Positions 3,229 to 27,589 of a DNA stretch of 32,629 bases are shown here, piece after piece (the first letter of the stretch is position 1; each line of letters opens with the position of its first letter). Where the stretch lies: IMG/VR virus record IMGVR_UViG_3300030106_005081, positions 1 through 32,629 of that record; one strand, 5' to 3'. Both the position numbers and the translations under genes were made by a program. A model generated the notes under the pieces. It ran no database searches. It worked only from the letters and a program-made list of their open reading frames with translations, and had not been told where the DNA came from. The stretch is from a virus.

Positions 3229-3464
3229 TTAGTATCTTTTATTTTTTTTAACTCTAGTTGGCAGTAGTGTATTATTTTTTTAATATCTTCTGCTCCGCCT
3301 TTACGTTGATATCTACAAACGTATTTTATAACGTTCCCTTGGAAAAACGATAAATCATTTTTTGAAATAAACTCGTAAGGTTGAATAGGAAACTTAGTGT
3401 AATGATTCCCGCCGACCTGAGTATATTGTGGAAATGCTTCATCAAATAGTTTTTTGTCTGTCAT
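3225..3464 (-). CDS. DUF3310 family protein
   Basis: The 79-residue protein has the DUF3310 pattern: GNHYTKFPIQPYEFI, then FFQGNVIKYVCRY, then a charged helix EDIKKIIHYCQLEL. The family is widespread in phages, often beside nucleotide-metabolism or replication genes, and its biochemical role is unsettled; some members are labelled nucleotide kinase-like. GGGAG lies 8 nt before the ATG. Both ends overlap neighbours by ATGA, with the helicase upstream and the polymerase downstream, so it is made with the replisome. Confidence 0.85.
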   Translation of the reverse strand: MTDKKLFDEAFPQYTQVGGNHYTKFPIQPYEFISKNDLSFFQGNVIKYVCRYQRKGGAEDIKKIIHYCQLELKKIKDTK

Positions 3465-4891
3465 AGTTGATACTCCCTTAATTTCTTTTTTGCTCTCAGT
3501 TTATATAAATTATTTCTCGCTCTCGTGATCCCGACATACCACACTCTATGCTCTTCATCTTGTTTGTCAACACTTGATTTAATTCCTTGTTGAATGGTAC
3601 GACCTTGGTGCAAAGATAAAATTACATTGTCTTCTTCACCACCTTTTATTGCATGAATAGTTGACAGCCATATTCTTGCTTTGTCTTTTAAATTTTCTTT
3701 TGATGCAATTAAATTTCTTAAATATAAAATTTCTTTTTGATCAGCTATAAATTTATCATACCATGGAACTTTAACATCCCAGTCTGCATTAGGTATATAT
3801 TCTTTTACTGCGCTAATTTCTTTATCATCTAATAATTCATCCATGGTCCATTTAGTATATGCAACTGCAGCCTCGTACATACCAACTTTAAAACTTTTAC
3901 CTTTGTTACTTTGATAATAAAAATTTTTACGTTTTAAATCTTTCATTATATCTAATAGATTGCTTTTAGTTCTTGTAAGTATTAACCATTTACCTTTAGT
4001 CAAATCAACCTGGTTAAGATCTGAGATATAATGTGACTCTCCCTCATGACTTCTAGGTCTATAAAATTTTTTCTTTCTTACACCTTCTATCTTCATAATA
4101 GGATATCTTGATTCTGCTTGGACAGACATGGATATACGACGTGATTGTTTTAAGACAATCTCTCTTGCAGGTTCTTTTACAAATCTTTTTACATCAGCTC
4201 CAGCCCATGCATAAATAGCTTGATCATCATCACCAGCTAGATACATTTGTTCACAATGATATTTTAATTTATCATATAGTTGCCATTGCAATGGTGATAA
4301 ATCTTGAGCCTCATCAATAAATATAGCTTTGAATAATGGTATTTTATCAGAGTTTAAAACTGCTTTTACAATATCATTAAAGTCAAAAAGATTATTTTTT
4401 TCTTTGTATATTTGAAGATTTTTATAAATGTGATTAAGCGTGTCAAAGTCGTTAACTTGCCTTTTATCATGTTCGTTTAAATCAAACTCTTGTCTTATTG
4501 TTATATCTTTGTTTATTGACCTTTGTATCATCTGAAAGTATGGGTTATTACAAGTTAAAAAGTGTGTCTCTTCTTCATTGTATTTATCTGTAAATGATAC
4601 TCTAACATTTAATTTTTTACCTAAATCCTCATAGTGATACGGCTGCATAATATCTTCTTCACTTAATCCAAGTAAATGATAACAGAATGCGTGTATAGTT
4701 TGAAAATATGGAACTTCTTTTTCAGATACATTAATTCTTTTACGTGCTTCTTCTGCAGCTTTTCTGGTAAATGCAAAATAACCTATCTTGTGTAAAGGCA
4801 CACCTACACGTTCGTACGCTTTTACACGTCTAATTAATCTAAACGTTTTACCTGTACCAGGTGGTCCGTAGATTTTATTGATCTTTTCCAT
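3461..4891 (-). CDS. SF1 DNA helicase, UvrD/PcrA-like
   Basis: A superfamily 1 helicase with the motifs in order: Walker A GPPGTGKT right at the N-terminus, Ia FAFTRKAA, Walker B FIDEAQD, motif III LAGDDDQAIYAWAGAD, motif V STIHAIKGGEED and motif VI WYVGITRARNNL. At about 476 residues it is shorter than bacterial UvrD, with reduced accessory subdomains. I start it at the ATG ending at 4891, just before the Walker A strand. A longer frame begins at 4960 and has a fair GGAG, but it would overlap the preceding gene by 86 bases and adds residues unlike the family. It is the only processive-type helicase candidate in the replication operon, since no DnaB-like protein is seen, so it probably serves the fork or primer-strand unwinding. 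Confidence 0.93.
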   Translation of the reverse strand: MEKINKIYGPPGTGKTFRLIRRVKAYERVGVPLHKIGYFAFTRKAAEEARKRINVSEKEVPYFQTIHAFCYHLLGLSEEDIMQPYHYEDLGKKLNVRVSFTDKYNEEETHFLTCNNPYFQMIQRSINKDITIRQEFDLNEHDKRQVNDFDTLNHIYKNLQIYKEKNNLFDFNDIVKAVLNSDKIPLFKAIFIDEAQDLSPLQWQLYDKLKYHCEQMYLAGDDDQAIYAWAGADVKRFVKEPAREIVLKQSRRISMSVQAESRYPIMKIEGVRKKKFYRPRSHEGESHYISDLNQVDLTKGKWLILTRTKSNLLDIMKDLKRKNFYYQSNKGKSFKVGMYEAAVAYTKWTMDELLDDKEISAVKEYIPNADWDVKVPWYDKFIADQKEILYLRNLIASKENLKDKARIWLSTIHAIKGGEEDNVILSLHQGRTIQQGIKSSVDKQDEEHRVWYVGITRARNNLYKLRAKKKLREYQL

Positions 4892-5576
4892 TGGCTTTCT
4901 TAAACCCATCTTTGAGTGAGCCTGCCCAGCCATATGTTCCGTGATGTGTTGTTTTTCCATCTACTACTCCATAAAATTTAAAACCTGATTTTTTAATTAA
5001 ATTACAAAAATTAACATCTTCACCCCACCAAGTTCCATCTTTACCAAAAGTGGTATCCCAAAAATTGTAAAAGTATGAATTTGCTTTTTCAGATATTATT
5101 TCTTTTTGTTTTATTTTAAGATGTGGATTATCTTTAATTAATTTTTCATAAACCTTCCTGTGAATCAATGTTAAACCTGCAGGTCCAGCTTTTAATTCTA
5201 CAATACCTTTTTGATCTATTTGAATATTCATCGGGTCTTCAAATTCTACAGAAAACTTAACCACATTATCTTGTGTTTTTTTTCTGTAAGGAACACAAAT
5301 TGCATCTTTTTCAGATAAAATCATACGACCTACAACATCAGGTTCGAATTCTAAATCTGCATCTACAAACAATTGATAATCAAAACCTGATTCTAAAAAC
5401 ATTGCTGTTAATACATTTCTTCCGTAACCAACGTAAGGACATTTAAAAGTTCCTATCTCTGCCGGTATTTTTGCAAGCGTAAATTTATTAAATAATTTTA
5501 CCAACGATAGACAAGTTGATACTTGCATTAAATCATAAGTTGGCATTGATATATAAATCTTAGGTGGCTTCTTCAT
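4875..5576 (-). CDS. Glycosyltransferase, GT-A fold (replication-side copy)
   Basis: The 233-residue protein opens with IYISMPTYD, then YGRNVLTAMFLES, and has a DxD nucleotide-sugar/metal motif at residues 72-74 (LFVDADLEF). The late segment WWGEDVNFC resembles the acceptor or catalytic loop of GT-A enzymes. This layout is repeated in the protein at 17824-18708 (QGRNLCVAEML, LFIDSDIDF, YFGEDFGFC), so the two are paralogues or share a subfamily. AAGGAG lies 8 nt upstream, and the start overlaps the primase stop by ATGA. Finding it inside the replication operon is unusual. Possible substrates are modified DNA bases, host surface glycans or phage proteins; the sequence does not decide. Confidence 0.8.
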   Translation of the reverse strand: MKKPPKIYISMPTYDLMQVSTCLSLVKLFNKFTLAKIPAEIGTFKCPYVGYGRNVLTAMFLESGFDYQLFVDADLEFEPDVVGRMILSEKDAICVPYRKKTQDNVVKFSVEFEDPMNIQIDQKGIVELKAGPAGLTLIHRKVYEKLIKDNPHLKIKQKEIISEKANSYFYNFWDTTFGKDGTWWGEDVNFCNLIKKSGFKFYGVVDGKTTHHGTYGWAGSLKDGFKKANGKDQ

Positions 5577-16730: not shown

Positions 16731-17767
16731 TATACTACCTTACTCTCTAGGCTTTTCATGAGATCATACATTCTCTGAGCGCCTTTATTAACACTACCAC
16801 CACCTGCAGCTCTAACTGCATCAGCGGTAAATACGAATTCGTTATTTGATAACATCGCTGGGATATCATCAGCTTTTTCTTTTACACCAACTGGCGGTAT
16901 AAATCCACCTGTTTCTCTAAGATCTAATTCTTTTACACCTTTTGAATTTTGTCTAACAGGTAGTCCTTCGATGCCACCTGCTTGCATAGCATTTTCGCTA
17001 GCTGTATCACCCATAGCTTTCATAACTCTACCACCTATGGCAAAAGATCCTTGTGCGCCTTGAGCATTAGCAACCATTGCATCTATTCTAATATCATAAT
17101 CAGAGTTAGACTCATTTGATCCTTGTGGATTTAATCTTTGAAACTGAACTTTTAATTGATCTTTTACAGCTTGAGTTCTTTCTATAAAATCTTGATCACT
17201 TTCACCTTCTTCTCTTTCTAAACTAGATAATAAACCTGTTATGACTCCACCAGCTCCACCTACTTTTAGTGCATCCATAACAGCACCACTTCCTGTTTTA
17301 TCACCGGATAAATTTAAAAAACCTAAAGGATTACCAAATGTTTTAACACTTCCTTTTAAACCACCTATACCAAAAAAAGGTGCATTACCAGCTAACATAG
17401 GTGCAAAGTTTAAAGCAGCTGCAGCCAATAAAGGATTTTTCTTAACACCTTTTACTACACCTTTAACAGCTTTCTTAACTGATTTAACAAGACTACCTAA
17501 ACCATAATTTACTCTACCACCCATGGCATAATCATCGATAGGGCCTTTATCCATAGCCTCACGATATGCATCTTCATCCATGGCTAATTTACCAGCGGTA
17601 TCATAATCATAGCCGAGATCTAATAAATCTTCCATTCTTTTGATAACATAGTCAGGGCCTGCCATTTTCATGGGTTTTTCTTCTTTAGGTCTTAAATCAC
17701 CTTTAAGAATAATATTAGGTGCTCCTGCTGTAAAATCTTTTGCTTGTCTAGTATTTGTTATTGCCAT
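16730..17767 (-). CDS. Virion-associated protein with GGGSVNKGAQRMYDLMKSLE tail motif, 345 aa
   Basis: A 345-residue protein in three parts. The N-terminal part contains LDLGYDYDTAGKLAMDE (residues 49-65), a motif shared with the 1432-residue protein. A basic and hydrophobic middle follows (VKSVKKAVKGVVKGVKKNP, then LLAAAALNFAPMLAG), which could be membrane-active. The C-terminal part has MLSNNEFVFTADAVRAAGGG followed by an NKGAQRMYDLMKSLE helix. I recall the C-terminal pattern as frequent in marine phage virion proteins. No Shine-Dalgarno is visible. The 56-nt gap upstream has a weak promoter-like pair (TATAAA at 17791-17786 with a poor -35), so it may open a transcription unit for the internal virion genes. 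Confidence 0.78.
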   Translation of the reverse strand: MAITNTRQAKDFTAGAPNIILKGDLRPKEEKPMKMAGPDYVIKRMEDLLDLGYDYDTAGKLAMDEDAYREAMDKGPIDDYAMGGRVNYGLGSLVKSVKKAVKGVVKGVKKNPLLAAAALNFAPMLAGNAPFFGIGGLKGSVKTFGNPLGFLNLSGDKTGSGAVMDALKVGGAGGVITGLLSSLEREEGESDQDFIERTQAVKDQLKVQFQRLNPQGSNESNSDYDIRIDAMVANAQGAQGSFAIGGRVMKAMGDTASENAMQAGGIEGLPVRQNSKGVKELDLRETGGFIPPVGVKEKADDIPAMLSNNEFVFTADAVRAAGGGSVNKGAQRMYDLMKSLESKVV

Positions 17768-17823
17768 AATTTTGTCTAAATTTAGTTTATAGGGCAGGCG
17801 TACTAATCCTGAAGTATCACACT

Positions 17824-18708
17824 TTATTTGATTTTTTTACTATCGTCAACCTGTTTTAAGTTGTCAAAGAACCTACCACAGAACTGATGTTCGCCAACAT
17901 GGGTTATATAATCCATGATATATAGATATACTTTACCACCCATATCGCCCCATCTTTGGCAAAAACCAAAATCTTCACCAAAATAACGTTTAGTTTCTGT
18001 GTCGTGAATAGTGTCAAAAAAGTTATAAAAGTTTGGTTTCTTAACCTCTTTACCATTAATATTAGTAGGTTGAAATATTTCTAACTCAGGGTAATGTTTA
18101 ATCATCTTTTCTAATACTTCTCTTTTAATTAACATACAGCCTGTAGGAGCGTGGGTTGCCTCTACAATACCTAATTTAGATTCAATGTGATTTTGATCTT
18201 CTAGTTTAATTGGAAACGTATATCCAGGTCTTTTAAGTTGATCTGGATTTTGAGCTTTATCTTTTTCTTGAAATATTTTATCCCAATCTAATGATTTCAT
18301 TGGATAAGGACATGCTATAACATCTTTGTTAGCTTTTAACATAGTTTCAATAGTTTGAAAATTAAAGTCAATATCAGAGTCAATAAACAATAAATGTGTA
18401 TAACCATCTTCATGATTTAACATTTCAGCCACACATAAATTTCTACCCTGTGTAACCAAAGACGATTTCATTAAAGTAAAACTAACTAATATTTTTCTCA
18501 TTAAACAATCTTGTTGAAACTTTAATAATGCTTGTGTGTAATGAATAGAACACTCACTATGCACAGGAGTGCATACCATTATTTTCCATGGTGATTTAGA
18601 TTCTGGTTTAGGATCCGATAAATCTATAACTTCAGCTTTAGTAGTAGATTGCTGAATAGTTTGATAAGTGTCTTCGTTGAACCAGATAGGTTTATTTGGA
18701 TTTTGCAC
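17824..18708 (-). CDS. Glycosyltransferase, GT-A fold (tail-side copy)
   Basis: The 294-residue protein has an extra N-terminal 40 residues, then WKIMVCTPVHSECS, QGRNLCVAEML, the DxD motif D110-S-D112 (LFIDSDIDF), APTGCMLIKREVLE, and YFGEDFGFCQRWGDMGG near the C-terminus. This series matches the enzyme at 4875-5576 block for block. The start is a GTG with AAGGAG 6 nt upstream, and it overlaps the preceding GT4-type enzyme by 17 bases. The pair probably acts on the same glycan or on a phage or host surface component. The acceptor and sugar are not readable from the sequence. Confidence 0.85.
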   Translation of the reverse strand: MQNPNKPIWFNEDTYQTIQQSTTKAEVIDLSDPKPESKSPWKIMVCTPVHSECSIHYTQALLKFQQDCLMRKILVSFTLMKSSLVTQGRNLCVAEMLNHEDGYTHLLFIDSDIDFNFQTIETMLKANKDVIACPYPMKSLDWDKIFQEKDKAQNPDQLKRPGYTFPIKLEDQNHIESKLGIVEATHAPTGCMLIKREVLEKMIKHYPELEIFQPTNINGKEVKKPNFYNFFDTIHDTETKRYFGEDFGFCQRWGDMGGKVYLYIMDYITHVGEHQFCGRFFDNLKQVDDSKKIK

Positions 18709-19639
18709 TAATTACTCCTTTTAAAAATGTAGTCCACTGCATAGCTATTTTATTCCAATTGTAATAAATATGCGTGTATCTAGATTGTGAATCTAAATGA
18801 TCATGTATTTGTTTTTGGTCTAATGTATGTGAGGCTTGTTCTATACCAAAGCCAAACTTTTGTGCTAACGCTCTATGATTAGAATCATATGGCACGTACA
18901 TTGGAAACTCTGCTCCGGTTTCATACAAAGCACCTAAGTCATCGACAATACAATATAAACCTGCTGCCATGCATTCAAGCAAAGATATACAAGATGTTTC
19001 TTCAAAGATACTAGGGTAAACATACATATGATAATTTTTTAAATTATCTTTTATGTACTGATTAGATTTATAACCAATGTAATTTACATTAGGTAATTTT
19101 TTAGCTTGTTCATAAAGTTCTCTGTACTCATGATCATTTTGATCATAAAATTGTTTACCATAAACTTCTGTAGATGAATATACATCTAAAGTAACTAAAG
19201 GATTTTTTACTAATTGCATTGCACCTAATAACACAGACAAACCACGCCAAGGTGTATTTTGGTGTATTATTTTTATAGGTTGACCTTTTTGATATGGTTT
19301 AGCTTGTTCTATTTTATCAATACCATTTTTAATAACCACAGATCTATTTGTGGGTATGTTAAAATGATATCTAAATTTTTCATATGTCCAATGTGAATTA
19401 AAAACATACCAGTCATATTTATTATGATTGGCTGGATTACTAAACCAGGGAGCTAGATTAGGTTGATCGTAAGAATTTTTTTGCCAAAGTATATTTGGTT
19501 TGTTTGGATGCAAAGGTATTTTTTCTGGAACTGAGGTACAAATTTCAACTTGATCTAATAATGCATTATCAACGTGTTTTCTTAAATAATCAAATTGTAA
19601 TTCTGTTCCTCCTTTAGGGTCTTGATTTCTTATTTTCAT
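18692..19639 (-). CDS. Glycosyltransferase, GT4-type (GT-B fold)
   Basis: The 315-residue enzyme has the donor-binding half of GT-B glycosyltransferases: VVIKNGID, IIHQNTPWRGLSVLL, YVYPSIFEETSCISLLECMA with the E-x7-E pair (EETSCISLLE), then AAGLYCIVDDLGALYETG. The N-terminal domain is short and starts directly with KGGTELQFDYL, the GG-x-E acceptor-side loop, so the first beta strand seen in full-length GT4 enzymes is largely missing. AAAGGA lies 6 nt before the ATG. It overlaps both neighbours, the UPF0489-like gene upstream and the GT-A enzyme downstream, forming one cargo block inside the structural operon. Confidence 0.88.
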   Translation of the reverse strand: MKIRNQDPKGGTELQFDYLRKHVDNALLDQVEICTSVPEKIPLHPNKPNILWQKNSYDQPNLAPWFSNPANHNKYDWYVFNSHWTYEKFRYHFNIPTNRSVVIKNGIDKIEQAKPYQKGQPIKIIHQNTPWRGLSVLLGAMQLVKNPLVTLDVYSSTEVYGKQFYDQNDHEYRELYEQAKKLPNVNYIGYKSNQYIKDNLKNYHMYVYPSIFEETSCISLLECMAAGLYCIVDDLGALYETGAEFPMYVPYDSNHRALAQKFGFGIEQASHTLDQKQIHDHLDSQSRYTHIYYNWNKIAMQWTTFLKGVISAKSK

Positions 19640-20126
19640 TTACGATCCTTTCTAATATTTTAAATGCAATAATCGCCTCTGCAGCTAATGCATAATCAGG
19701 ACTACAACATATAAAAATTTTGTCAAATTTTTTATTTTTTATATAACTTAAATTATGATCAAAGTAATAAGATTTTAAATTGTCTAAACGATTAATTAAT
19801 ACATGGTGTGAATTTGGATTATTAATCCAAAGATAATTTATCTTTTTTTTAAAAACATTGGACAAATGAAATAACCAATTACCTTCATTTAATTTATTAT
19901 CTAACTCATTTTTATAACTAAAGTCGTGATGATGATCTATGTTAATTAAATTGTATTCATCATATCCGTGTTCAAACATTGGATACATGGTATCATGAAC
20001 TAATGAAGTAACTACATTATCATGAGTATATAATAAAGGTATTACAAAATTTAATAATTCTTCTTGTTGTTTTAAAGAAATTATCCAATCACAATCTACT
20101 GATAATATATCAAGTTTTTTTGTCAT
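19614..20126 (-). CDS. UPF0489/arginase-like protein, 170 aa
   Basis: Key segments are ILSVDCDWIISL (D11-x-D13), NLINIDHHHDFSY with D64-x-H66-x-D68, EGNWLFHL, and IFICCSPDY near residue 140. The D-x-H-x-D triad and the separate D-x-D pair are the two metal-binding motifs of the ureohydrolase/arginase fold, and the GNW segment is as in UPF0489 proteins. Established knowledge: some UPF0489 members are peptide arginases that turn Arg into ornithine in ribosomal peptides. The assignment rests on short motifs, so the exact family is moderately certain and the substrate unknown. It sits between a His-rich small protein and the glycosyltransferases, overlapping both. Confidence 0.65.
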   Translation of the reverse strand: MTKKLDILSVDCDWIISLKQQEELLNFVIPLLYTHDNVVTSLVHDTMYPMFEHGYDEYNLINIDHHHDFSYKNELDNKLNEGNWLFHLSNVFKKKINYLWINNPNSHHVLINRLDNLKSYYFDHNLSYIKNKKFDKIFICCSPDYALAAEAIIAFKILERIVNENKKSRP

Positions 20127-20370
20127 TATTTTGATTTAATACTTTCTGAAATATTTCTAAACCTTTGTTAGTAATTTGAACGACAACGTCTTGCACTATA
20201 TCAGGTCCTTCTTTCTTCTCTTTATATGTTTCACCAGTTTTTGTATTTCTATATGTTGTTATAGTTGTACACTCTATTCTTGGTAACTCGTCATGAGTGT
20301 GTGGAATGTCTCCACCTTCATGAGAATGAGTAACACCATTTTCATGTGTGTGTTTTATTTTTTTATCCAT
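20110..20370 (-). CDS. Small His-rich protein with three HxH motifs
   Basis: The 86-residue protein begins MDKKIKHTHENGVTHSHEGG and continues DIPHTHDE, giving three HxH units spaced 8-9 residues apart. A mixed charged domain follows with VVVQITNKGLEIFQKVL at the end. HxH motifs bind Fe or Zn in phage fibre and spike tips, which are trimeric, so three units per chain could hold several ions; a metal-carrier role is an alternative. I start at the second ATG (20370) because AAGGA is 6 nt upstream of it but directly abuts the first ATG (20376). The 3' end overlaps the arginase-like gene by 17 bases. Confidence 0.75.
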   Translation of the reverse strand: MDKKIKHTHENGVTHSHEGGDIPHTHDELPRIECTTITTYRNTKTGETYKEKKEGPDIVQDVVVQITNKGLEIFQKVLNQNNDKKT

Positions 20371-20713
20371 TTTCATTCCTTCTGTCTATTAAAGCATAAT
20401 TTATTAGGCCTTGTATTTTATTACTGCCTGTAGCTGCTTGTATGGTTATAGCATCGCCTGCCTCTAAATTCAACCCTTGAGGTGAGGCGTTTACTTGAGA
20501 TTTAGCAGCTATCTCGTCTCTAAAAAATTCATATTCAGTGCTTGAATCTGATGAGTCTACAAAATTCATGTTTACTAAAATACCTGATGAGGCATCGTTG
20601 TTTGCACAATAAATACTTTTAACTATAATTGTTCCATCTGTAGGACAAGTAAGTATGGTATCCTTGCTCGTACCCGATTGTTTAAAACCTTGATTTTTAT
20701 AAAATATACTCAC
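20363..20713 (-). CDS. Small beta-rich structural protein, 116 aa
   Basis: The 116-residue protein reads as a compact beta-sandwich: TILTCPTDGTIIVKSIYCAN, GILVNMNFVDSS, YEFFRDEIAAKS, LNLEAGDAITIQAATG, LINYALID. Proteins of this shape are common small head or tail decoration proteins. The start is a GTG overlapping the TGA of the preceding 54-residue gene (GTGA) with no Shine-Dalgarno, so translation is coupled. Placement after the gp10-like and 275-residue tail genes favours a tail or fibre-associated role. Function is inferred. Confidence 0.72.
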   Translation of the reverse strand: MSIFYKNQGFKQSGTSKDTILTCPTDGTIIVKSIYCANNDASSGILVNMNFVDSSDSSTEYEFFRDEIAAKSQVNASPQGLNLEAGDAITIQAATGSNKIQGLINYALIDRRNENG

Positions 20714-20874
20714 GATAAAAAGTAATTAAAAGCGTCTTGTTCGTTTTTTAAATCTTGTTGAAAAGAAAAATTTAATTGATTTTGTAATGTAGTCATAGAC
20801 TCTAGTATCTGTCTTTGGTTCTCTACATCGTATTCTGGTTTTGGTTCGGGTATATAGTTTGTTACTTTAGCCAT
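20710..20874 (-). CDS. Small helical protein, 54 aa
   Basis: A 54-residue ORF beginning MAKVTNYIPEPKPEYDVENQ and continuing with a Gln/Asn-rich helix (RQILESMTTLQNQLNFSFQQ) to FNYFLS. The ATG is formed at the stop of the upstream gene (TAATG) and the TGA overlaps the next GTG start, so it fills the space between two genes exactly, which is good evidence that it is translated. No family recognised. A small connector or chaperone of neighbouring virion proteins is possible. Confidence 0.65.
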   Translation of the reverse strand: MAKVTNYIPEPKPEYDVENQRQILESMTTLQNQLNFSFQQDLKNEQDAFNYFLS

Positions 20875-21701
20875 TAATAACCTGCTCTTCCTCTACTTGT
20901 ACGCGGTGAAAACTGACCACTACCTACTGATGTGCCTGCATCATCTGCACGATCAGTGCTAAAACCACCTCTATCATTTGTAAAACCTTGGTCTCTAGCA
21001 CTTTTATAAACATCTGGCATAGCTTTCTGTGCTCTTTCAGCTTGTTTACGTTCTCTTCTTTTTTGAAGAAATTCCATTAAAGTTCTTGATCGACCAAAAT
21101 CAGATCCTTGTATTCTTTGATTTAAGCCAGATAATGATTCTAAACCACCTCTAATTAAATTAAAAGGTGTAGGAACTCCTTGTAAAAATTCAAATAGTTT
21201 AGCAATACCACTTTTAGTTTCTGTAGCTTTATCTACATCCTCTTCATCATCTGGTTCATTAGCAACACCAAAAGAAGTATCAAAACCTAATGACTTAGGT
21301 GCTTGACTCATGATGCCTAAATTAGGATAATACAAATCTTGAAACATAGTGGAAGCAGAAACAGGAGGAACTGGTGCTACAAAATTATTAGATGATGTGT
21401 CTGTATTTATAGGAGAAAAATAATTAATATCTTCTGCCATCTCAGCCATAGATCTAAATGGATATCGATTTGTTGTAATATTAGGCTTACCTGTAATAAC
21501 ATTAAAATCTGGTTCTGCACCAGCAGCAGGTGGGAAAAAGAAGTTTCCTATTTTTTGTAAGAAATTTGTTTTTTCTGGTTGTTGTTGAACAGCTGCTAGA
21601 TAATCTTCTGCTTGTTGTCTAATCTCAGGTGTATCGCTATTTAACATAGCTTGTAAGTTTTGGTCTGATATACCTATTCCGTAACTAATTGGTGTTGCCA
21701 T
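20874..21701 (-). CDS. Virion-associated protein of unknown function, 275 aa
   Basis: The 275-residue protein begins MATPISYGIGISDQNLQAML and contains the hydrophobic patch FLQKIGNFFFPPAAGAEP. A Pro/Ser-rich linker follows, then a helical part (IAKLFEFLQGVPTPFNLIRG), and the C-terminus is a basic, Gly/Arg/Ser-rich tail. No enzyme motif is visible. It starts at the stop of the gp10-like gene (TAATG) with GGAAGAAG before it, so production is tied to that tail protein. Disordered ends and position suggest a minor tail or ejection component. Confidence 0.72.
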   Translation of the reverse strand: MATPISYGIGISDQNLQAMLNSDTPEIRQQAEDYLAAVQQQPEKTNFLQKIGNFFFPPAAGAEPDFNVITGKPNITTNRYPFRSMAEMAEDINYFSPINTDTSSNNFVAPVPPVSASTMFQDLYYPNLGIMSQAPKSLGFDTSFGVANEPDDEEDVDKATETKSGIAKLFEFLQGVPTPFNLIRGGLESLSGLNQRIQGSDFGRSRTLMEFLQKRRERKQAERAQKAMPDVYKSARDQGFTNDRGGFSTDRADDAGTSVGSGQFSPRTSRGRAGY

Positions 21702-23665
21702 TATCTTCTTCCATCCGGTTGTGCGTCTAATCTTAATGTGCCGTATCTCCAGGTTTCACCTGTACCATCATTTTCTATTTTAATAGATACAAGTCTTCCT
21801 CGAGCTCGAGTGTCTACTTTATCAGTGGTTTTGGTAATTGTAAAGGGTCCAAGAGGTGAGCTAACTGCTACATCATCTGGATAAGAACTTACTAATAAAG
21901 TTACTTTTGCATTACCTTCTTGATATTTAAAGTCAGGTATAAAACGTCTTACAGCCATAAAAAATTCACCATCTCCTCTGTAATCTACAATACCTGTTGA
22001 TTGACCTAGAGCGCTACGTCTTGATGTTATATCCCAATCTCCTGATCTAATAAATGCAGGGATAGCTGTGGTTGCTGTGCTATTAACTTGATCTGTGCCT
22101 GTTTCATGTTCATAGTAAATACTAGCTCCATATTTATTTGTAATTCCTAATATGTCAGGAAATACAGGAGTGTCTGTGTCTCCATAATCTGTAGCGTAAG
22201 GATTATCAAATACACTTTGATCTTGATATGTTGTTCTATCTAACGATGATGTTGTCCAACAATTTTCTGAATAGTTGTAAGTAACACATCTGTCTATTTG
22301 TTCAGATCCATCTTTTGGATAAAACCAATTTACTTCAGTATATAAATTATTAGCCCCTGCAAAAATAACGTCACTTGAATTAAAGTTTAATCCTAAATTA
22401 TCTCCATCAGTAGTAAATACAAAATCTTCTACAAGTGATGGTAATGATTTAACCGTACCATCGAATGCAAAAAATCCACCCTGTGATCCCATCCAAAATA
22501 CAGCACCATTTACGAATGTGGCTGCATGTTGTCCAATACATCCACAATTAGTACCAACTTGTCTAACACTAAATGTAAATGGTGGTCCTACAAACTGAAT
22601 AACATATGCAGCAAGATCAGTTATAACAAACACGTAGTCTTTACCTTGTATGGCTGCCCTTATTTCATTTCCTGTATCTAATCTAAATGTACCGGCTGTA
22701 TTGGTTTCTGTTGGCGTGTATGTGTTTAAATCTTCTTGATTAGAAAATCTTACAAACATTGGATCTTGTGTAGATGGATCACCAATAGTTGTCTCTGTTC
22801 CAAAATGAAATAAGTGTCTGTCACGATCTGATACTAATGTAAATCTAGTGGCCGTAGGATTGTTACCAGTTGCAAAACCTGATGTGGTTAATGATGCTCT
22901 AATTGTTCTAGGGTTTGTTGCACCTGCATTCCATGTAAACGTTCTACCATCAAATATAGTTGCAACTAATACTTGACCAAAGTTATCAAGACTCCAGTTT
23001 CCTGGAGCTAGAATTACGTCACTAGTCGCTCTGGCAGTTCCCCATGTAGATGTATTCCAAGTTGATGTACTCCAACCATAACCTGTTGTTTGAGTGGTTG
23101 GCCCTACTTCAACATACGGATTTACGGTCACTGCTCCTGCAGCACTCATACCTGTGCCACCTTCATTTCTTGAAGCCTGAACGGTAAATTTATCTATGTC
23201 AGGGGTTGTTAATATTTCATAAGATTGCTGTAATTCTGCTGCTGTAAAATCAGATGCACCTGTAACCGTGACTCCAGAAAGAGTTACGTATCGTCCAACT
23301 GCTAATCCATGCGATCCTTTATTTATAGTTACAACATTAGATCCATTAGTAGTTGTTAAAGTGCCTCCAGTGATGGCTGTATCTAAAGGTGTAATGTCAT
23401 AAAAATCATTACCATAGTATAAAAATAAACCTTGCGATGTGCCTATGGCAGCATACTTCTCGCCAGCAAAACTTGAAAATGCAACTTGTGCCCTGGCTGC
23501 TCCCGGTAAAGTTTTATTAGCGGCGGTTAATTGTAACCACCCACCTATTTTTTCAGGCATACCATATCTAAATCTTACAAAATCGCCATCAGTCCATTGA
23601 CCTTCTGCCCCTGAATCTGTGTCTTGTTTATTGAATCCTGCCTTAAATTTTAATTTCTGTAGCAT
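21701..23665 (-). CDS. Tail/head-closure protein, P22 gp10-like
   Basis: The 654-residue protein opens with LKFKAGFNKQDTDSGAEGQW and then TDGDFVRFRYGMPEKIGGW (residues 25-43). This is the characteristic start of gp10-like packaged-DNA stabilisation and tail-hub proteins of podoviruses. The rest is beta-propeller-like with repeated strand pairs (SQGLFLYYGNDFYDI, GSQGGFFAFDGTVKSL, TNKYGASIYYEHE). In P22 this protein closes the portal channel and supports the tail needle and spikes. It has no good Shine-Dalgarno and follows a 45-nt gap with a hairpin after the oxygenase genes. Confidence 0.75.
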   Translation of the reverse strand: MLQKLKFKAGFNKQDTDSGAEGQWTDGDFVRFRYGMPEKIGGWLQLTAANKTLPGAARAQVAFSSFAGEKYAAIGTSQGLFLYYGNDFYDITPLDTAITGGTLTTTNGSNVVTINKGSHGLAVGRYVTLSGVTVTGASDFTAAELQQSYEILTTPDIDKFTVQASRNEGGTGMSAAGAVTVNPYVEVGPTTQTTGYGWSTSTWNTSTWGTARATSDVILAPGNWSLDNFGQVLVATIFDGRTFTWNAGATNPRTIRASLTTSGFATGNNPTATRFTLVSDRDRHLFHFGTETTIGDPSTQDPMFVRFSNQEDLNTYTPTETNTAGTFRLDTGNEIRAAIQGKDYVFVITDLAAYVIQFVGPPFTFSVRQVGTNCGCIGQHAATFVNGAVFWMGSQGGFFAFDGTVKSLPSLVEDFVFTTDGDNLGLNFNSSDVIFAGANNLYTEVNWFYPKDGSEQIDRCVTYNYSENCWTTSSLDRTTYQDQSVFDNPYATDYGDTDTPVFPDILGITNKYGASIYYEHETGTDQVNSTATTAIPAFIRSGDWDITSRRSALGQSTGIVDYRGDGEFFMAVRRFIPDFKYQEGNAKVTLLVSSYPDDVAVSSPLGPFTITKTTDKVDTRARGRLVSIKIENDGTGETWRYGTLRLDAQPDGRR

Positions 23666-23686
23666 ATAAAATCTTATATATCACTT

Positions 23687-23720
23687 ATCTCAATTATGGA
23701 AGAGAGATATTTATTGAGAT
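23687..23720 (-). other. 8-bp hairpin spanning the stop of oxygenase copy 1
   Basis: ATCTCAAT and ATTGAGAT form a perfect 8-bp stem with an 18-nt loop. The 5' arm on the minus strand includes the first bases of the TAA stop. There is no U-tract on the minus strand. It fills the 45-nt gap before the gp10-like gene and may mark the end of the oxygenase segment on the message. Confidence 0.35.
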
Positions 23721-24241
23721 TTTATAACATAATTAATTGATATTCGCCAGTAAGGTATTCTTTGATTAGGTCCTACACCCTCGTGTATTTCGTTACTTTT
23801 AAATATTAAAAACTTACCAGGTTCAAAATCTATTTTATTTTCTTCAACTTGCAAAGCCCCTCCCCATTCTTTTGACCATTGTGGAGTTAGAAAACCTAAG
23901 ATAGTTATTGCATCACTTTCATTTGAATCTACATGAAACTCAGTTAAAGAAGTTTCGTTTTTTGCACCTAGATGAATTCTTTGAATATGACGAGGTAATT
24001 CATAATTATATTTATTGTAAAAACTTATATTTATTCTTTCATATAAAGAAGTAAAATATCCATTCCAATATGGATTAAAGATATTTTCATTATCTTTTAC
24101 TACTAAACCAGGGAAGGTGCAAAAGTCTCCACCCGCAGATGATCTAGCTAAATTCCAGTCATTACAATTTATTAAACCTTTATATAAACTAAATAATTCT
24201 TTTTTTAATAAAATGTTGTCTACGTATTTAATTTTTGTCAT
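23711..24241 (-). CDS. Fe(II)/2-oxoglutarate oxygenase, copy 1
   Basis: The 176-residue protein has the double-stranded beta-helix signature: H103-x-D105 (EFHVDSNESDAITILGFLT), the turn EWGGALQVEE, PGKFLIFKSNEIHEGV with the distal H153, and R166 (YWRISINYV) to bind 2-oxoglutarate. The facial triad is complete, so it should be an active dioxygenase. Its substrate (protein side chain, nucleic acid or small molecule) cannot be read. It is the last of three minus-strand oxygenase-like genes and overlaps copy 2 by 14 bases. An 8-bp hairpin begins at its stop codon. Confidence 0.88.
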   Translation of the reverse strand: MTKIKYVDNILLKKELFSLYKGLINCNDWNLARSSAGGDFCTFPGLVVKDNENIFNPYWNGYFTSLYERINISFYNKYNYELPRHIQRIHLGAKNETSLTEFHVDSNESDAITILGFLTPQWSKEWGGALQVEENKIDFEPGKFLIFKSNEIHEGVGPNQRIPYWRISINYVIKSQ

Positions 24242-24716
24242 AATTATAAAATATGTTTATCGTGTGTCTAGGTGAACTTTTTCCTAACGCTTGTAAATCA
24301 GTATGAACATTATTTTTTCCATCAAAAAATAACGCTCTGTTATTTATAAACCCTAAATATGTATTTAATTTATTTTTATAATAAAATCCAGTTCCATTAT
24401 AAACAAGTTCATCACCTTTTAAATATAGTATAAAATTATAGTCTTCTTCATCCTCATGCGACATAACTTTTTTAGCATTGTGTCTTAAATGATAAGATCC
24501 TTTATTAACTTTTAAATTAATATTTGGAAAAAATTGTTTTTTTATTTTTTTAAAAAGCCATTCATTTTCTGAATTTCTTTCAAACTCATGTCTAAATCCA
24601 AAATTTCCGTCATCATTTTTTATTGCTTTATAATTTATCTTATTTAAATTATTAAGCAAAATGCTTAATTCTTTTTTATTTAAAAAGTTATCTTTTATTT
24701 GTATGGTAGGCAACAT
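24228..24716 (-). CDS. Fe(II)/2-oxoglutarate oxygenase-like, copy 2
   Basis: The 162-residue protein shows SYHLRHN, then H87-x-D89 (MSHEDEEDYNFILYL), YLGFINNRALFFDG, and H138 (NNVHTDLQAL) followed by R150 (SSPRHTINIFYNY). These supply the H-x-D...H triad and the 2-oxoglutarate arginine, so the active site looks intact although the rest has diverged strongly from copies 1 and 3. I start at the ATG overlapping the previous stop (TAATG at 24716), not at a TTG five codons earlier. Substrate unknown. Confidence 0.75.
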   Translation of the reverse strand: MLPTIQIKDNFLNKKELSILLNNLNKINYKAIKNDDGNFGFRHEFERNSENEWLFKKIKKQFFPNINLKVNKGSYHLRHNAKKVMSHEDEEDYNFILYLKGDELVYNGTGFYYKNKLNTYLGFINNRALFFDGKNNVHTDLQALGKSSPRHTINIFYNYDKN

Positions 24717-25234
24717 TACGAATATTTCCAATTAAAACTTATTCCATATCTAGGCTTATTAGTTTTATTTTTTTCATTTCCATGTGATAAAAATGATGTA
24801 AACATGGCAAAACTCCCGGGTTCAGGTTCTAAAACCTCTTCTATTTCTGGAAAATATAATTTTTGAGGATGTTTAGTTAGCATAATAGTGCCAGACACTA
24901 TGGCTGGTTTATGGTCATGGTATCTTGAATGATCGCCAAAATTTTGTTTAAATCCCCATGCGTCATCTAAAAACCATGGCAAATTTTCAGTAAAATTATA
25001 TTTAGTAATCATGTCACCAAGTGGCATTATCATTTTAATAAATTTTGGATCATTTACAAAATATTTGTAAGAAGTCATTGGACTTATTAAATTAGTAAGA
25101 AAATTTTGATTATCTTTGTGTTTTATACCTTTTTCAATACGTTGGATAAAATAATCCACATCTACTTTTAATTTTCCTTTTACAAAAAAATAATCTCTTT
25201 CTATTTTTGATTTTACAAATTTATCAACTTTCAT
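24716..25234 (-). CDS. 2-oxoglutarate oxygenase-like protein, copy 3 (variant iron site)
   Basis: From the ATG at 25234 the product has 172 residues; a TTG at 25282 would add 16. The sequence WGFKQNFGDHSRYHDHKPAI, then VSGTIMLTKHPQ, EPEPGSFAMFTSFLSHGNE and KPRYGISFNW matches the family of putative 2OG-Fe(II) oxygenases whose first iron motif is HxH (lSGxxYL type) rather than HxD. The distal His and the Arg are present. It is first of the minus-strand trio and faces the plus-strand oxygenase across a short divergent promoter region. Whether it binds iron without the usual acidic ligand is open. Confidence 0.78.
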   Translation of the reverse strand: MKVDKFVKSKIERDYFFVKGKLKVDVDYFIQRIEKGIKHKDNQNFLTNLISPMTSYKYFVNDPKFIKMIMPLGDMITKYNFTENLPWFLDDAWGFKQNFGDHSRYHDHKPAIVSGTIMLTKHPQKLYFPEIEEVLEPEPGSFAMFTSFLSHGNEKNKTNKPRYGISFNWKYS

Positions 25235-25267
25235 GTCTTTATTATGTTTACAAAAATTAATGTATAA

Positions 25268-25296
25268 TTTACTTTTTTTCAAGACAAAAATATGAT
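25268..25296 (+). promoter_or_regulatory. Promoter of the plus-strand P4H-like gene
   Basis: TTTACT (25268-25273) is followed after 17 nt by TATGAT (25291-25296), matching 4 and 5 of 6 sigma-70 consensus positions. The predicted start near 25303 leaves a 10-nt leader before the ATG. The box lies in the gap between two divergent oxygenase genes. Confidence 0.45.
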
Positions 25297-25312
25297 ATAG
25301 CCCATTTTAATT

Positions 25313-25912
25313 ATGAAAGAAAAAACGGTTAATATAACTAATTTCATTGGAATATACGACAATTACATCACTGACCAAGAATGTGATAAGGCTATTAAAT
25401 TATACGAAGATCAAAATAAATTTAACAGAACGGTAAACAGAATTGGATCAGAGAATATGTCTATATTACATAAACAAGATCAACAATTTTTTGCTAATTC
25501 TTCTAATGTAGATGTGTGGTGGGAAAATTTAAAAACTATGATGCATAACTACAATTTAGCATGGAATCACTATTCTAAAAATGTAGGAGCTATAGAAGCT
25601 TACGGGAATGTAAGTGCTTTTAATTTTACTTGTTTAAAAATTCAAAAAACTTTACCAACAGAAGGTTATCATGTTTGGCATCTTGAACATGGTAAAGGTT
25701 TTGAAAATGAAGCAAGAGCTTTTGTTTTTTCTATATATTTAAACGATGTAGAAGATGGAGGCGAAACAGAATTTTTACATTTTTCAAAAAGAGTAAAACC
25801 TAAAAAAGGTAGAATAGTTATATGGCCAGCTGGTTTTCCATACGTGCACAGAGGTAATCCACCTTTATCAGGTGAAAAATATATATTAACGTCTTGGATG
25901 ATGTTACGATGA
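25313..25912 (+). CDS. Prolyl 4-hydroxylase-like 2OG-Fe(II) oxygenase, copy 4
   Basis: The 199-residue protein has the P4H-type fold: GYHVWHLEHG with H123-x-E125, then FVFSIYLNDVEDGGETEFLH, RVKPKKGRIVIWPAGFPYVH with H179, and K189 (GEKYILTSW) at the 2-oxoglutarate position. Glu replaces the usual Asp of the facial triad, which can still bind iron. The pattern matches marine-phage P4H-like enzymes, which probably hydroxylate protein side chains. It is the only plus-strand gene in the structural half. A promoter (TTTACT, 17 nt, TATGAT) lies just upstream, and its end overlaps the convergent 133-residue gene. Strand and promoter suggest a separately acquired cargo gene. Confidence 0.9.
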   Translation: MKEKTVNITNFIGIYDNYITDQECDKAIKLYEDQNKFNRTVNRIGSENMSILHKQDQQFFANSSNVDVWWENLKTMMHNYNLAWNHYSKNVGAIEAYGNVSAFNFTCLKIQKTLPTEGYHVWHLEHGKGFENEARAFVFSIYLNDVEDGGETEFLHFSKRVKPKKGRIVIWPAGFPYVHRGNPPLSGEKYILTSWMMLR

Positions 25913-26305
25913 TGAATATGATGTAGGTCTTGCACCTAATCTAGCTATTTTATCAGATTCACTTTCAGCAGAAACTTCATTACCTGACTCATCAAAAGAT
26001 GTAAGGTTATCATTATCCCAATCAGATTGTAATCTAGCTAAATGTGCAGAGTCCCATCTATCAATAAAATCTTGAAAGTCGCCTAAGTTTGCATCTTCCC
26101 AAGTAGAGTGAGGAGTTGAATCTCTGTACTCAACCGTGTCGCTAGGTTCAAATGTTCCATATTGAATAGCCCAAATGTTATTCCATTTAGCTAATCCCCA
26201 AAAATCATTATCATTTAAAATTTTGTAAGCACCTGCACCATCTCCAGATTGTTTTATAATTTTTTTATCTTCGAATACTACGGTCCATGTTGAATTTGTT
26301 GCCAT
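25904..26305 (-). CDS. Small protein of the tail-fibre block, 133 aa
   Basis: The 133-residue acidic protein is rich in Trp, Asp and Ser (TWTVVFEDKKIIKQSG, DFWGLAKWNNIWAIQYGTF, DFIDRWDSAHLARLQSDWDN) and ends in a disordered Ser-rich tail. AGGAG with a 5-nt spacer precedes the ATG. It follows the collar-domain fibre protein, the usual place for a fibre assembly chaperone or a tip-associated protein, and its acidity fits a chaperone; I do not recognise a family. Confidence 0.7.
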   Translation of the reverse strand: MATNSTWTVVFEDKKIIKQSGDGAGAYKILNDNDFWGLAKWNNIWAIQYGTFEPSDTVEYRDSTPHSTWEDANLGDFQDFIDRWDSAHLARLQSDWDNDNLTSFDESGNEVSAESESDKIARLGARPTSYSSS

Positions 26306-26313
26306 ATTTTCTC

Positions 26314-26886
26314 CTATGTCTTAATAATATAAATTACTGCTAAATAAGGTTGAACAACTGAAGTCGAATCTCCAGTAAAAGTTGCACTCATGTTGTGAGA
26401 GTGACCTGTCCCTGATCCAGCGTTGTTAGTGTTGTTATTTGCTTCCAATAAAGGATAAGATGAAGCTTGCGGTCCTTGATATCTGTGAATTGAACCTCTA
26501 GCACTACCACCATGATCGTGTTCAGCTAGTTGTGCTTCTGATAAAGTTGCATTTGCTGTTGAACCTCCAACGTTTCCAGTTGACTGAACCGTGTTCGCTC
26601 CACCAGTTGATGCTAAAGCTTTAGTTCCAGATTTACCTATTACAACGTTATCTTGTAAATCAGGTAGATTAAAAGTTGATGCACCATCTCCAGCTCCATA
26701 AGTTGTACCTACGATAGCAAATAAAGCAGAGTAAGTTGATCTTGAAACAGCTGCTCCATTACATTCTAAAAAACCTGTTGGCACTGAAGAAGAAGACCAC
26801 GGCACAATAGTTGCTGTAGGAATTCCTTCGATACCAGTAAGATTTGCTCCTGAAAAATCGTATTTTGTTGCTTCGTAATTTGACAT
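26314..26886 (-). CDS. Tail fibre protein with phage tail collar domain
   Basis: The 190-residue protein has the collar signature: ATIVPWSSSSVPTGFLECNG, then SALFAIVGTTYGAGDGASTF and NLPDLQD. It ends as collar-type fibre tips do: EHDHGGSARG, GTGHSHNMSATFTG and VVQPYLAVIYIIKT. The two HxH units (HDH, HSH) are in the region where T4 gp12 and gp37 bind metal ions. I start at the ATG at 26886 with GGAG 7 nt upstream. An ATG at 26922 would overlap the preceding gene and adds unlikely residues. The protein probably forms the receptor-binding tip of the trimeric fibre. Confidence 0.88.
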   Translation of the reverse strand: MSNYEATKYDFSGANLTGIEGIPTATIVPWSSSSVPTGFLECNGAAVSRSTYSALFAIVGTTYGAGDGASTFNLPDLQDNVVIGKSGTKALASTGGANTVQSTGNVGGSTANATLSEAQLAEHDHGGSARGSIHRYQGPQASSYPLLEANNNTNNAGSGTGHSHNMSATFTGDSTSVVQPYLAVIYIIKT

Positions 26887-26887
26887 A

Positions 26888-27589
26888 TTATTTCTCCGTG
26901 TAAGTCCATCCTGTTGTAGCATCGCCTGAGAATACTAATCCAAAAGCTGCGCCTTGCGTATTGACCGTGAGATCAGATGCTGCGTTAGCTATATTAGATC
27001 CATTTCTTCCGACCGTCAATGCATTACTATTAAAATCATAACCTTGATCGACAAAATGCACTTCATCGCCAGTTGCAGGTGAGGCAGGTAGCGTTATTGT
27101 TACTCCTCCACCATTTGTGTTTACTAAAAGCTGAGCTCCAGCTTGAACCGTTTCAGCTGCAGATACTACTCTCCATTTTCTGTACTCATTTACTTTTTCA
27201 ACATTAGTTCCATCAGAATATAATGTATAACAATTACCCTCACATAAAAGAACACCTGTTCCTGAAGAAGTTTTAAAAGTTAAAGTGTTTCCTGCATGAT
27301 CACAATTGTTTTGTACAAAATAAGTTTTTTCAATTGAATCTGGAATAGTCACCGTTCTGTTGGCCGCTAATGTTCCTGTTAATCTAATAACATCGTTTTT
27401 ACCATTTGATAAAGCACCATTAGTAAAAGTTAAAGATCTGTTAGCGTTAGTTAAGTTAAAAGTTGTAAAGCCACCAATAGCTTGTTCTAAAATTAGTAAG
27501 TTTGTATTTGTAATTTGACCCCAAGTTCCCGAGTTTTCACCGGTTGCTTGAACCGTAAGTTTTAGGTTAGCAGATGTTGAATTAGCCAT
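26888..27589 (-). CDS. Tail fibre shaft protein, 233 aa
   Basis: The protein starts MANSTSANLKLTVQATGENS then GTWGQITNTNLLILEQAIGG, a typical start of phage fibre proteins. It continues with beta-strand and turn repeats (RTVTIPDSIEKTYFVQNNCD, GNTLTFKTSSGTGVLLCEG, AGAQLLVNTNGGGVTITLPA). It probably makes the shaft or adhesion segment paired with the collar protein downstream, which follows the stop at once. AAGGA sits before the start. A terminator-like hairpin separates it from the repeat-rich gene upstream, yet the gene can be read by run-through. Confidence 0.82.
   Translation of the reverse strand: MANSTSANLKLTVQATGENSGTWGQITNTNLLILEQAIGGFTTFNLTNANRSLTFTNGALSNGKNDVIRLTGTLAANRTVTIPDSIEKTYFVQNNCDHAGNTLTFKTSSGTGVLLCEGNCYTLYSDGTNVEKVNEYRKWRVVSAAETVQAGAQLLVNTNGGGVTITLPASPATGDEVHFVDQGYDFNSNALTVGRNGSNIANAASDLTVNTQGAAFGLVFSGDATTGWTYTEK

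Follow-up and report, generated by a model that had tools for sequence, protein, structure and literature searches.

What do modification-type enzymes do among the tail genes of a phage, and do they form a single system? This question is raised by the region 17,824-25,912 of IMGVR_UViG_3300030106_005081, which we analyzed over positions 1-32,629 (32,629 nucleotides, hereafter the window). The window belongs to an HTVC023P-type pelagiphage, of the marine, SAR11-infecting kind, whose closest cultured relative is HTVC027P. A preliminary description had placed seven modification-type genes in two blocks around gp10-like tail genes, and our analysis confirmed them: four 2OG-Fe(II) oxygenase-like ORFs, one arginase-like ORF and two glycosyltransferase ORFs are present, each identified by family, motif or fold evidence. 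The gene for the gp10-like tail (stabilisation) protein (21701..23665, minus strand; 81% identity to HTVC027P gp75 at 100% coverage) is the anchor that separates two slots. Slot A lies between the collar/P133 genes and gp10, and slot B between a His-rich gene and the glycosyltransferase gene GTb. The edge of slot A is P133 (25904..26305, minus), which evolves fast and adjoins OX4, followed by a tail collar domain protein (COL; 26314..26922, minus), a homologue of HTVC027P gp70 with PHROG tail collar/fibre matches and a candidate substrate. The left edge of slot B is HIS (20110..20376, minus), a His-rich protein of 88 aa that is conserved beside the slot; it is not an enzyme, and its amino acid letters point to a possible metal binder. 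P116 (20363..20713, minus) is a small conserved late protein with 275 homologous ORFs in 349 sequences, and a 275-aa protein adjoining the gp10-like gene (20874..21701, minus) varies among relatives.

Slot A of the window contains four predicted Fe(II)/2OG-dependent oxidising enzymes, OX1 to OX4. The accessory oxygenase OX1 (23711..24241, minus) matches PF13640 above the Pfam cut-off (E 1.8e-7), and H104, D106, H153 and R165 are kept in 10/10 members of its cluster; it also matches PHROG 274, whose label reads 'DNA endonuclease V'. OX2 (24228..24731, minus), likewise accessory, gave no relevant match in the Pfam search and was assigned by its HxD...H...R motif and predicted fold. D94, H143 and R155 are present in 27/27 rows of the OX2 family alignment and H92 in at least 90%, and the AlphaFold model (pLDDT 90.4) matches PHD2 with Z 15.5 and an rmsd of 2.9 over 159 aligned residues. 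Its best matches are protein hydroxylases, PHD2 together with the viral collagen prolyl hydroxylase of PBCV-1 (Z 14.9) and Pseudomonas putida P4H (Z 15.0), and it is the only one of the four for which a double-stranded beta-helix is supported, by comparison of a predicted model with PHD2. The third accessory enzyme, OX3 (24716..25282, minus), matches PF13759 above the cut-off (E 4e-8) and PHROG 81, forms its own singleton cluster among the slot proteins and has, by eye, the residues HDH...H...R. OX4 (25313..25912, plus), the constant oxygenase of slot A, is encoded antisense to the late genes and matches PF13640 above the cut-off (E 2.1e-11) and PHROG 61 (E 5.1e-46); H122-x-E124, H178 and K188 are present in 94/94 distinct family members.

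The arginase-like (UPF0489-like) protein ARG (19614..20126, minus) occupies slot B and was assigned by invariant motifs and by Pfam matches in family members. The window protein itself matched no Pfam model and thus did not reach the UPF0489 or Arginase gathering score, while UPF0489 was found in 3/26 family members (best E 3.5e-5) and Arginase in 5/26 (best E 0.0081); the two UPF0489 matches inspected in detail scored 17.1 and 18.5, below the 27-bit cut-off. In a 25-row alignment D11, D13, H44, D64, H66, D68 and E81-G-N-W84 are invariant, comprising the metal motifs D11-x-D13, H44, D64-x-H66-x-D68 and E81. The DxD of ARG is N-terminal and precedes DxHxD, whereas the BipC motifs run EEHxE, DxHxD, DIDLD in the available text of PMC12707348, and hence the metal geometry is only putative. 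The AF2 model of ARG (pLDDT 88.3) yielded a formiminoglutamase, an agmatinase and a guanidinium hydrolase at VIA ranks 1-3, with Z 5.3-5.5, below the trust level of the tool, and covering residues 33-170 only; a Foldseek search of the PDB gave no match with E ≤0.001. We predict that ARG is a peptide or protein arginase converting arginine to ornithine.

The two glycosyltransferase genes are adjacent. GTb (18692..19639, minus) is a group 1 (GT-B type) enzyme (PF00534, 39.2 bits versus a cut-off of 26.4; PHROG 2170). GTa (17824..18708, minus) is a GT-A-type enzyme related to STIV A197 and belongs to PHROG 1574 (E 8e-36), labelled 'unknown function'. The GTa family profile matches PDB 2c0n (STIV A197; E 2.7e-4) and GTa has a match to Anp1 in Pfam below the cut-off; D110 and D112 are invariant in 15/15 rows, and the DxD, ED and H motifs are conserved. 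A second PHROG 1574 protein (4875..5576, minus), a GTa paralogue with 33% identity, is encoded in the replication region outside the island.

Comparison with relatives bore out the view that modification-type enzymes cluster on both sides of the gp10-like tail genes, a place that is a hotspot in related loci. Slot A is occupied in 119/119 related loci where it was readable, so that the clustering goes beyond chance, and it holds 1-12 genes in 45 different compositions; the OX4 family is present in 118/119. Pfam matches among 52 cluster representatives (overlapping counts) were mainly to 2OG-FeII_Oxy_3 (18), Oxy_5 (11) and Oxy_4 (5), with Cupin_2 (4), JmjC_2 (3), carbamoyltransferase (3), methyltransferase models (up to 3) and sulfotransferase (1). 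Slot B, assessed in 106 loci, is empty in 80 and contains ARG in 21, OX1 in 3 and both in 2, with OX1 homologues in this slot in L008, L045, L064, L109 and L110. When ARG lies outside slot B, a profile-detected oxygenase is no more than 3 genes away in 12/15 loci, the exceptions being L108, L111 and L122; cyanophage L006, which is not among the 15, also has ARG without an oxygenase nearby. In other lineages ARG is part of oxygenase arrays, and oxygenases in turn enter the slot of ARG beside the glycosyltransferases; in L118 the glycosyltransferase pair is present, yet ARG is in slot A. The two blocks are linked by exchange of ARG and oxygenases between the slots, not via the glycosyltransferases.

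The enzymes also differ in evolutionary regime. Median dN/dS is 0.10 for GTa and 0.075 for GTb, similar to gp10 (0.084), whereas OX4 (0.24) and ARG (0.26) are closer to the collar protein and the adjacent P133 (both 0.30). Median distances are likewise larger for OX4 (0.31), COL (0.25) and P133 (0.37) than for gp10 (0.13) and TF (0.12). Partial Mantel correlations given gp10 were 0.24 for OX4-COL (as high in 11/500 permutations), 0.20 for OX4-P133 (14/500) and 0.08 for OX4-TF (107/500), a weak signal that could be plain linkage between neighbouring genes.

The explanation that we favor, with slightly less than even confidence, is that the locus comprises two exchange sites for protein-tailoring enzymes that act on the variable tail tip, plus a stable glycosyltransferase pair. 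In slot A, OX4 is kept while further 2OG-Fe(II) oxygenases come and go, joined in relatives by enzymes that transfer other groups; slot B is usually empty and can take ARG, an OX1-like oxygenase or both. During infection the oxygenases would hydroxylate side chains on the fast-evolving tail-tip/collar proteins and ARG would turn selected arginines of these proteins into ornithine, and both changes would diversify the surface that meets the host. GTa-GTb would be a separately inherited unit, probably glycosylating a conserved virion protein. The data show the gene identities (by family, motif or fold) and positions, the exchange between slots and the contrasting evolutionary regimes of glycosyltransferases and oxygenases; that the substrates are proteins, specifically those of the tail tip, and that the reaction of ARG is arginine to ornithine, we infer.

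Instead, the targets of the oxygenases and ARG in the infected cell could be proteins of the host, such as translation factors, by analogy with the prolyl hydroxylase of P. putida, which acts on EF-Tu. The match of the OX2 model to P. putida P4H, solved in complex with EF-Tu (4iw3, Z 14.7), is about as good as to any other protein hydroxylase, and most slot A genes run antisense to the late genes (206/224 of those not named OX4 and 141/146 of those named OX4), so late timing is not assured and the enzymes need not act late. However, their position among the tail genes is fixed, and they vary extremely, with an evolutionary pattern like that of the fibre tip where a conserved host target predicts otherwise, which makes action on host proteins unlikely.

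We consider it somewhat less probable still that the oxygenases are auxiliary metabolic genes (AMGs) for small molecules or for iron/haem metabolism, as the accessible parts of PMC9599517 and PMC11561400 present co-located 2OG oxygenases and ferrochelatases. Two of the 'ferrochelatase' proteins have no Pfam match, and PF00762 was absent from 8/8 phage records, two of them with genes so annotated, but was detected in 10/14 control genomes. The 'ferrochelatase' family retains HxD...H, as in oxygenases, and the neighbouring transferase and arginase-like genes suit macromolecule tailoring better.

The preliminary description had proposed one linked island, in which hydroxyls placed on fibre residues by the oxygenases are then glycosylated by the two glycosyltransferases. 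We examined 36 well-covered loci, in which the sequence extends 4 kb or more upstream of gp10 and 4.5 kb or more downstream. A first count gave 25 loci with both classes, 8 with oxygenases only and 3 with glycosyltransferases only; one of the last (L263) has a PF13759 gene beside gp10, which corrects the counts to 26, 8 and 2. Both classes frequently occur together and are near-universal inside the clade of the window, but independent variation of the blocks, which the preliminary description had named as refuting its idea, is largely what relatives show. The remaining glycosyltransferase-only records, L231 and L268, lack oxygenases detectable by two Pfam models, and tail tips can therefore do without oxygenases of this kind, which also counts against the explanation favored above. 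On the gp10 tree (91 rows) the glycosyltransferase pair requires one gain or loss, versus 27 changes of slot A composition (46 rows) and 6 of ARG (51 rows), and joint inheritance of oxygenase and glycosyltransferase genes was not supported. The analogy to collagen also failed: across 17 structural-region proteins of the window, collagen-like Gxx runs extend to 3 triplets at most. With the glycosyltransferases constrained like gp10 and the oxygenases evolving like the fibre tip, a single pathway is very improbable, and the pair is a separate stable unit, not its second step. A mere landing site for neutral or selfish cargo without common function, which the high turnover and mixed families would allow, is equally hard to credit given intact catalytic residues (OX4 HxE, H and K, for example), dN/dS of OX4 and ARG well below 1, one family kept in nearly all loci and identifiable cargo of mostly tailoring chemistries.

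Phages of the HTVC023P type have a wide distribution in the ocean, and until now their many 2OG-Fe(II) oxygenases have been interpreted as genes for metabolism or linked to iron. Should these enzymes modify proteins of the tail tip, they would be part of host recognition, the host-range variability of these phages would gain a chemical layer, and the published 'ferrochelatase' story would also need re-examination; a phage peptide arginase, if true, would be a new place for arginase chemistry. A broader and doubtful reading is that a combinatorial, horizontally swapped set (hydroxylases and an ornithine-making peptide arginase, with carbamoyl-, methyl- and sulfotransferases in relatives) remodels the tail tip chemically where it binds the host. 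Phages would then diversify receptor binding not by sequence alone but also by the chemistry of side chains, extending RiPP-like logic to virion proteins.

Clusters of oxygenases in pelagiphages have been published before. The searchable literature yielded neither the link to the arginase-like gene nor the exchange between two slots, nor any doubt cast on the 'ferrochelatase' labels. The available text of PMC9599517 describes HTVC023P-type pelagiphages with several co-located, non-orthologous 2OG-Fe(II) oxygenases and reports three glycosyltransferases; the phage group and the co-location are the same as in the window. That text reads the oxygenases as AMGs with ferrochelatases, and 'arginase' occurs 0 times in its main text, whereas the present locus has two defined slots that exchange genes, one oxygenase that stays constant, and a partner resembling arginase. 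Metaviromic islands of marine phages (PMC3909814, as far as its text is accessible) contain Fe(II)-dependent oxygenases (8 genes) in variable host-recognition islands, beside tail fibres as in the window; arginase-like and glycosyltransferase genes are not mentioned in that portion, and the phages analyzed in detail are HTVC010P relatives. OX2 resembles the prolyl 4-hydroxylases (PHD2, PBCV-1 vCPH and P. putida P4H) in predicted fold and HxD...H...R, but with only 10-19% identity and with no collagen-like target in the window. For STIV A197, a GT-A enzyme, the accessible text of PMC10551542 gives the viral coat protein as a possible target of glycosylation; the GTa family profile matches the A197 sequence, but the pelagiphage protein is longer and is paired with a GT-B enzyme. 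In biphenomycin biosynthesis, the available part of PMC12707348 describes a UPF0489 arginase that works on a hydroxylated peptide. The phage proteins differ from the RiPP peptide arginases OspR and BipC of this superfamily in their length (∼170 aa), N-terminal DxD, location in a tail operon and lack of a known precursor peptide, but share with them DxHxD and a partnership with hydroxylases.

The seven genes that the preliminary description had assigned to protein modification are all real, each being an open reading frame with family, motif or fold evidence. Three of the four 2OG-Fe(II) oxygenase-like genes, OX1 (23711-24241, minus strand), OX3 (24716-25282, minus) and OX4 (25313-25912, plus), passed Pfam cut-offs, unlike OX2 (24228-24731, minus). 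The OX2 family keeps the HxD...H...R motif, and prolyl hydroxylases match the OX2 model (pLDDT 90.4) at Z of about 15, with PHD2, the PBCV-1 viral collagen prolyl hydroxylase and P. putida P4H among the structural matches; tblastn of OX2 against annotated phages gave no match. OX1 and proteins of two relatives (L116:4502-5014 and L064:7927-8454) match PHROGs 274 and 19810, which bear the label 'DNA endonuclease V'; all three proteins are 2OG-Fe(II) oxygenases by Pfam or motif, and the label looks wrong. GTb (18692-19639, minus) is a group 1 glycosyltransferase by Pfam. GTa (17824-18708, minus) belongs to a PHROG of unknown function, and its profile matches STIV A197, described as a viral GT-A glycosyltransferase (PMC10551542). 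By analogy with the proposal for A197, a virion protein may be the acceptor of GTa and GTb. The GTa family has a second member in the window (4875-5576, 33% identical), located between the primase and helicase genes; it shares 86 bases with the helicase ORF (3461-4960).

Most ORFs of the window are on the minus strand, including those for DNA polymerase A, helicase, primase and tail proteins. The gp10-like tail protein (21701-23665, minus) shares 81% identity with gp75 of HTVC027P along its whole length, and the window is a fragment of an HTVC023P-type pelagiphage; its record is a virus contig of 33,064 bases. HTVC027P has the same layout: gp73 is OX4, gp72 and gp74 are two more oxygenases, gp80 is GTb and gp81 is GTa, and gp72-74 are antisense. 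Its tail region lacks the arginase-like gene of the window. Megablast of positions 17000-26500 against annotated phages found no close DNA relative.

Loci of relatives were fetched with five queries: ARG (the arginase-like protein, 19614-20126, minus), GTb and the gp10-like proteins of the window, HTVC023P and 023Pt_psg01. For all queries except ARG the best 80 loci were taken, which biases the set towards close relatives. We removed 10 loci that were second pieces of contigs already counted, and L001, a piece of the window. This left 119 readable loci for slot A, the interval from P133 (25904-26305, minus) and the tail collar domain protein COL (26314-26922, minus) to gp10, and 106 for slot B, from a His-rich gene to GTb. 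Slot A loci were anchored on P133/collar, a set that includes HTVC027P and leaves out HTVC023P, 023Pt_psg01 and DSL-LC04. Near-identical contigs of other samples were kept, so the counts are not counts of independent genomes.

Slot A occurred in 45 compositions of 1-12 genes. A member of the OX4 family was present in 118 of the 119 loci (the exception being L111), and slot A genes are mainly antisense to the late genes; OX1-OX3 of the window, which run in the late-gene direction, are one of few exceptions. The 398 proteins of both slots formed 52 clusters. Among the cluster representatives, Pfam (E 0.01; overlapping counts) found 2OG-FeII_Oxy_3 in 18, Oxy_5 in 11, Oxy_4 in 5, Cupin_2 in 4 and JmjC_2 in 3, together with carbamoyltransferase in 3, a methyltransferase model in up to 3 and Sulfotransfer_2 in 1. 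Genes with Carbam_trans_N/C domains lie within oxygenase arrays of relatives (L111:2556-3671, L066:2085-3668 and L047:2345-3268), and sulfotransferase-like and methyltransferase genes also occur in their slot A (L065:2462-3025; L084:3187-3861). Four loci (L081, L082, L160 and L169) combine a seven-gene slot A with three tandem collar-domain genes; the numbers of collar copies and of oxygenases may be linked. One family, OXc1, had a high and wide dN/dS (median 0.865, quartiles 0.30-1.05), which we take as paralogue and alignment noise; relaxed selection is a possible alternative cause.

Slot B was empty in 80 loci and held ARG alone in 21, an OX1-like gene alone in 3 and both in 2. At its left edge a small His-rich protein (20110-20376 in the window) is kept, which we infer may bind metal for the neighbouring Fe- and Mn-type enzymes. 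Other lineages have ARG inside the oxygenase slot (L102, L103, L111, L113, L114, L116 and L118), L118 despite carrying the glycosyltransferase pair. When ARG was outside slot B, a profile-detected oxygenase was within three genes in 12 of 15 loci (all except L108, L111 and L122); the cyanophage locus L006, not among these 15, had none within three genes. A contig filed as a Flavobacteriaceae MAG, possibly from a phage, carries ARG in the middle of a row of genes for proteins of about 200 amino acids (L350:271-7766), and five scanned neighbours matched 2OG-Fe(II) models (three), DUF6445 (one) or nothing (one). ARG is therefore a partner of the oxygenases more than of the glycosyltransferases.

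The two blocks had been read as a possible single island for hydroxylation and then glycosylation, a two-step route known on collagen-like and other proteins, with the fibre proteins as possible targets. Of the 36 loci that extend 4 kb or more upstream of gp10 and 4.5 kb or more downstream of it, both enzyme classes occurred in 25, oxygenases alone in 8 and glycosyltransferases alone in 3. A family search in one of these three, L263, found a PF13759 gene beside gp10, bringing the joint count to 26; PF13759 and PF13640 were absent from the records of the other two, L231 (48.8 kb) and L268 (36 kb). Oxygenase counts come from in-house profiles, and because absence in short loci is weak, a looser set of 73 loci (both 53, oxygenase only 12, glycosyltransferase only 6, neither 2) was kept out of the main claim. 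On a 91-row gp10 tree the glycosyltransferase pair (68 rows with, 23 without) required a single change, versus 6 for ARG in slot B (51 rows), 4 for an oxygenase in slot B (51 rows) and 27 for slot A composition (46 rows). Median dN/dS of GTb (0.075) and GTa (0.104) was near that of gp10 (0.084); it was higher for OX4 (0.241) and ARG (0.26) and highest for COL and P133 (both 0.303). Judged by tree changes and dN/dS, the glycosyltransferase pair behaves like a stable, clade-specific unit; the oxygenases and ARG behave like genes of the variable tip. One linked two-step pathway was rejected as the main reading because of these different histories, and collagen-like runs of more than three triplets were absent from all 17 structural-region proteins of the window.

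Window ARG itself had no Pfam match; of 26 family members, three matched UPF0489 and five Arginase. Residues D11, D13, H44, D64, H66 and D68 and the EGNW motif are invariant in 25 rows. Ureohydrolases took VIA ranks 1-3 with the ARG model, which is of good quality (pLDDT 88.3, pTM 0.86), at a modest Z of 5.3-5.5 and in alignments starting at residue 33. PDB sequences gave four chance-level matches, none a ureohydrolase, and Foldseek against PDB found none at E <= 0.001. Among viral models there was one match, the uncharacterised C7BUW9 of Synechococcus phage S-RSM4 (E 9.4e-8), and among annotated phages one, a cyanophage. The ARG cluster reached at most 8.6% probability against three oxygenase clusters in profile-profile comparison, and a UPF0489 search of the genomes behind L350 and L353 found 0/2. 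ARG-like genes on Clostridium/Clostridia-labelled contigs (L349:5746-6387 and L352:1914-2561) have a replication-type context, flanked on one side by a helicase-like gene and on the other by a large ORF resembling a PHP-domain polymerase (both named by eye).

The best reading, on circumstantial evidence, is that the slot A enzymes and ARG tailor tail-tip proteins. The evidence consists of the fixed position of slot A beside collar/P133, the protein-hydroxylase fold of OX2, the fast divergence common to OX4, COL and P133, the other transferases alongside, and partial Mantel tests giving a weak OX4 signal with COL and P133 and none with TF. The Mantel signal, confounded by linkage, hints at OX4-collar coevolution. 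Action of the oxygenases and ARG on host proteins is also possible; the structural matches of OX2 include a P4H whose structure was determined with EF-Tu bound (4iw3). Metabolites are possible substrates as well.

The literature searched yielded neither a phage arginase-like gene linked with oxygenases nor a description of the two-slot exchange. In biphenomycin biosynthesis a UPF0489 arginase is described as working with hydroxylases (PMC12707348). The motifs of this RiPP arginase, BipC, are named there in the order EEHxE, DxHxD, DIDLD, with the DxD type last, whereas in ARG DxD comes first, on the first strand; a circular permutation of the arginase order is possible from the motif positions. 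Published work on HTVC023P-type phages reports 2OG-Fe(II) oxygenases that are co-located, as well as three glycosyltransferases (PMC9599517), gp73 was noted as a 2OG-Fe(II) oxygenase in the HTVC027P transcriptome (PMC12753301), and variable host-recognition islands of marine phages are described as carrying oxygenases (PMC3909814).

Oxygenases and 'ferrochelatases' have been reported as seasonally enriched together (PMC11561400). A 35-member slot A cluster (e.g. L157:3386-3931) matches PHROGs labelled ferrochelatase, with no Pfam match for its representative; HTVC023P gp67 and its 023Pt counterpart match such PHROGs and no Pfam family. PF00762 was found in 0/8 phage records, both carriers included, versus 10/14 control genomes. 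Pelagiphage 'ferrochelatases' of PHROG 2954 (L003:10289-10909 and L004:12054-12710) have an HxD...H oxygenase-like motif and no Pfam ferrochelatase match. The family keeps H109-x-D111, within YxxGxxLxxHxD, and H162 in at least 90% of 27 rows. Profile-profile comparison with the oxygenase clusters was not significant (probability at most 0.84%; shallow profiles), which leaves the motif as the basis for reading the family as a putative further oxygenase; this test is weak, because OX2-type cluster 10 likewise scored under 1% despite its clear fold. The published pairing of oxygenases with ferrochelatases may be one of oxygenases beside oxygenases.
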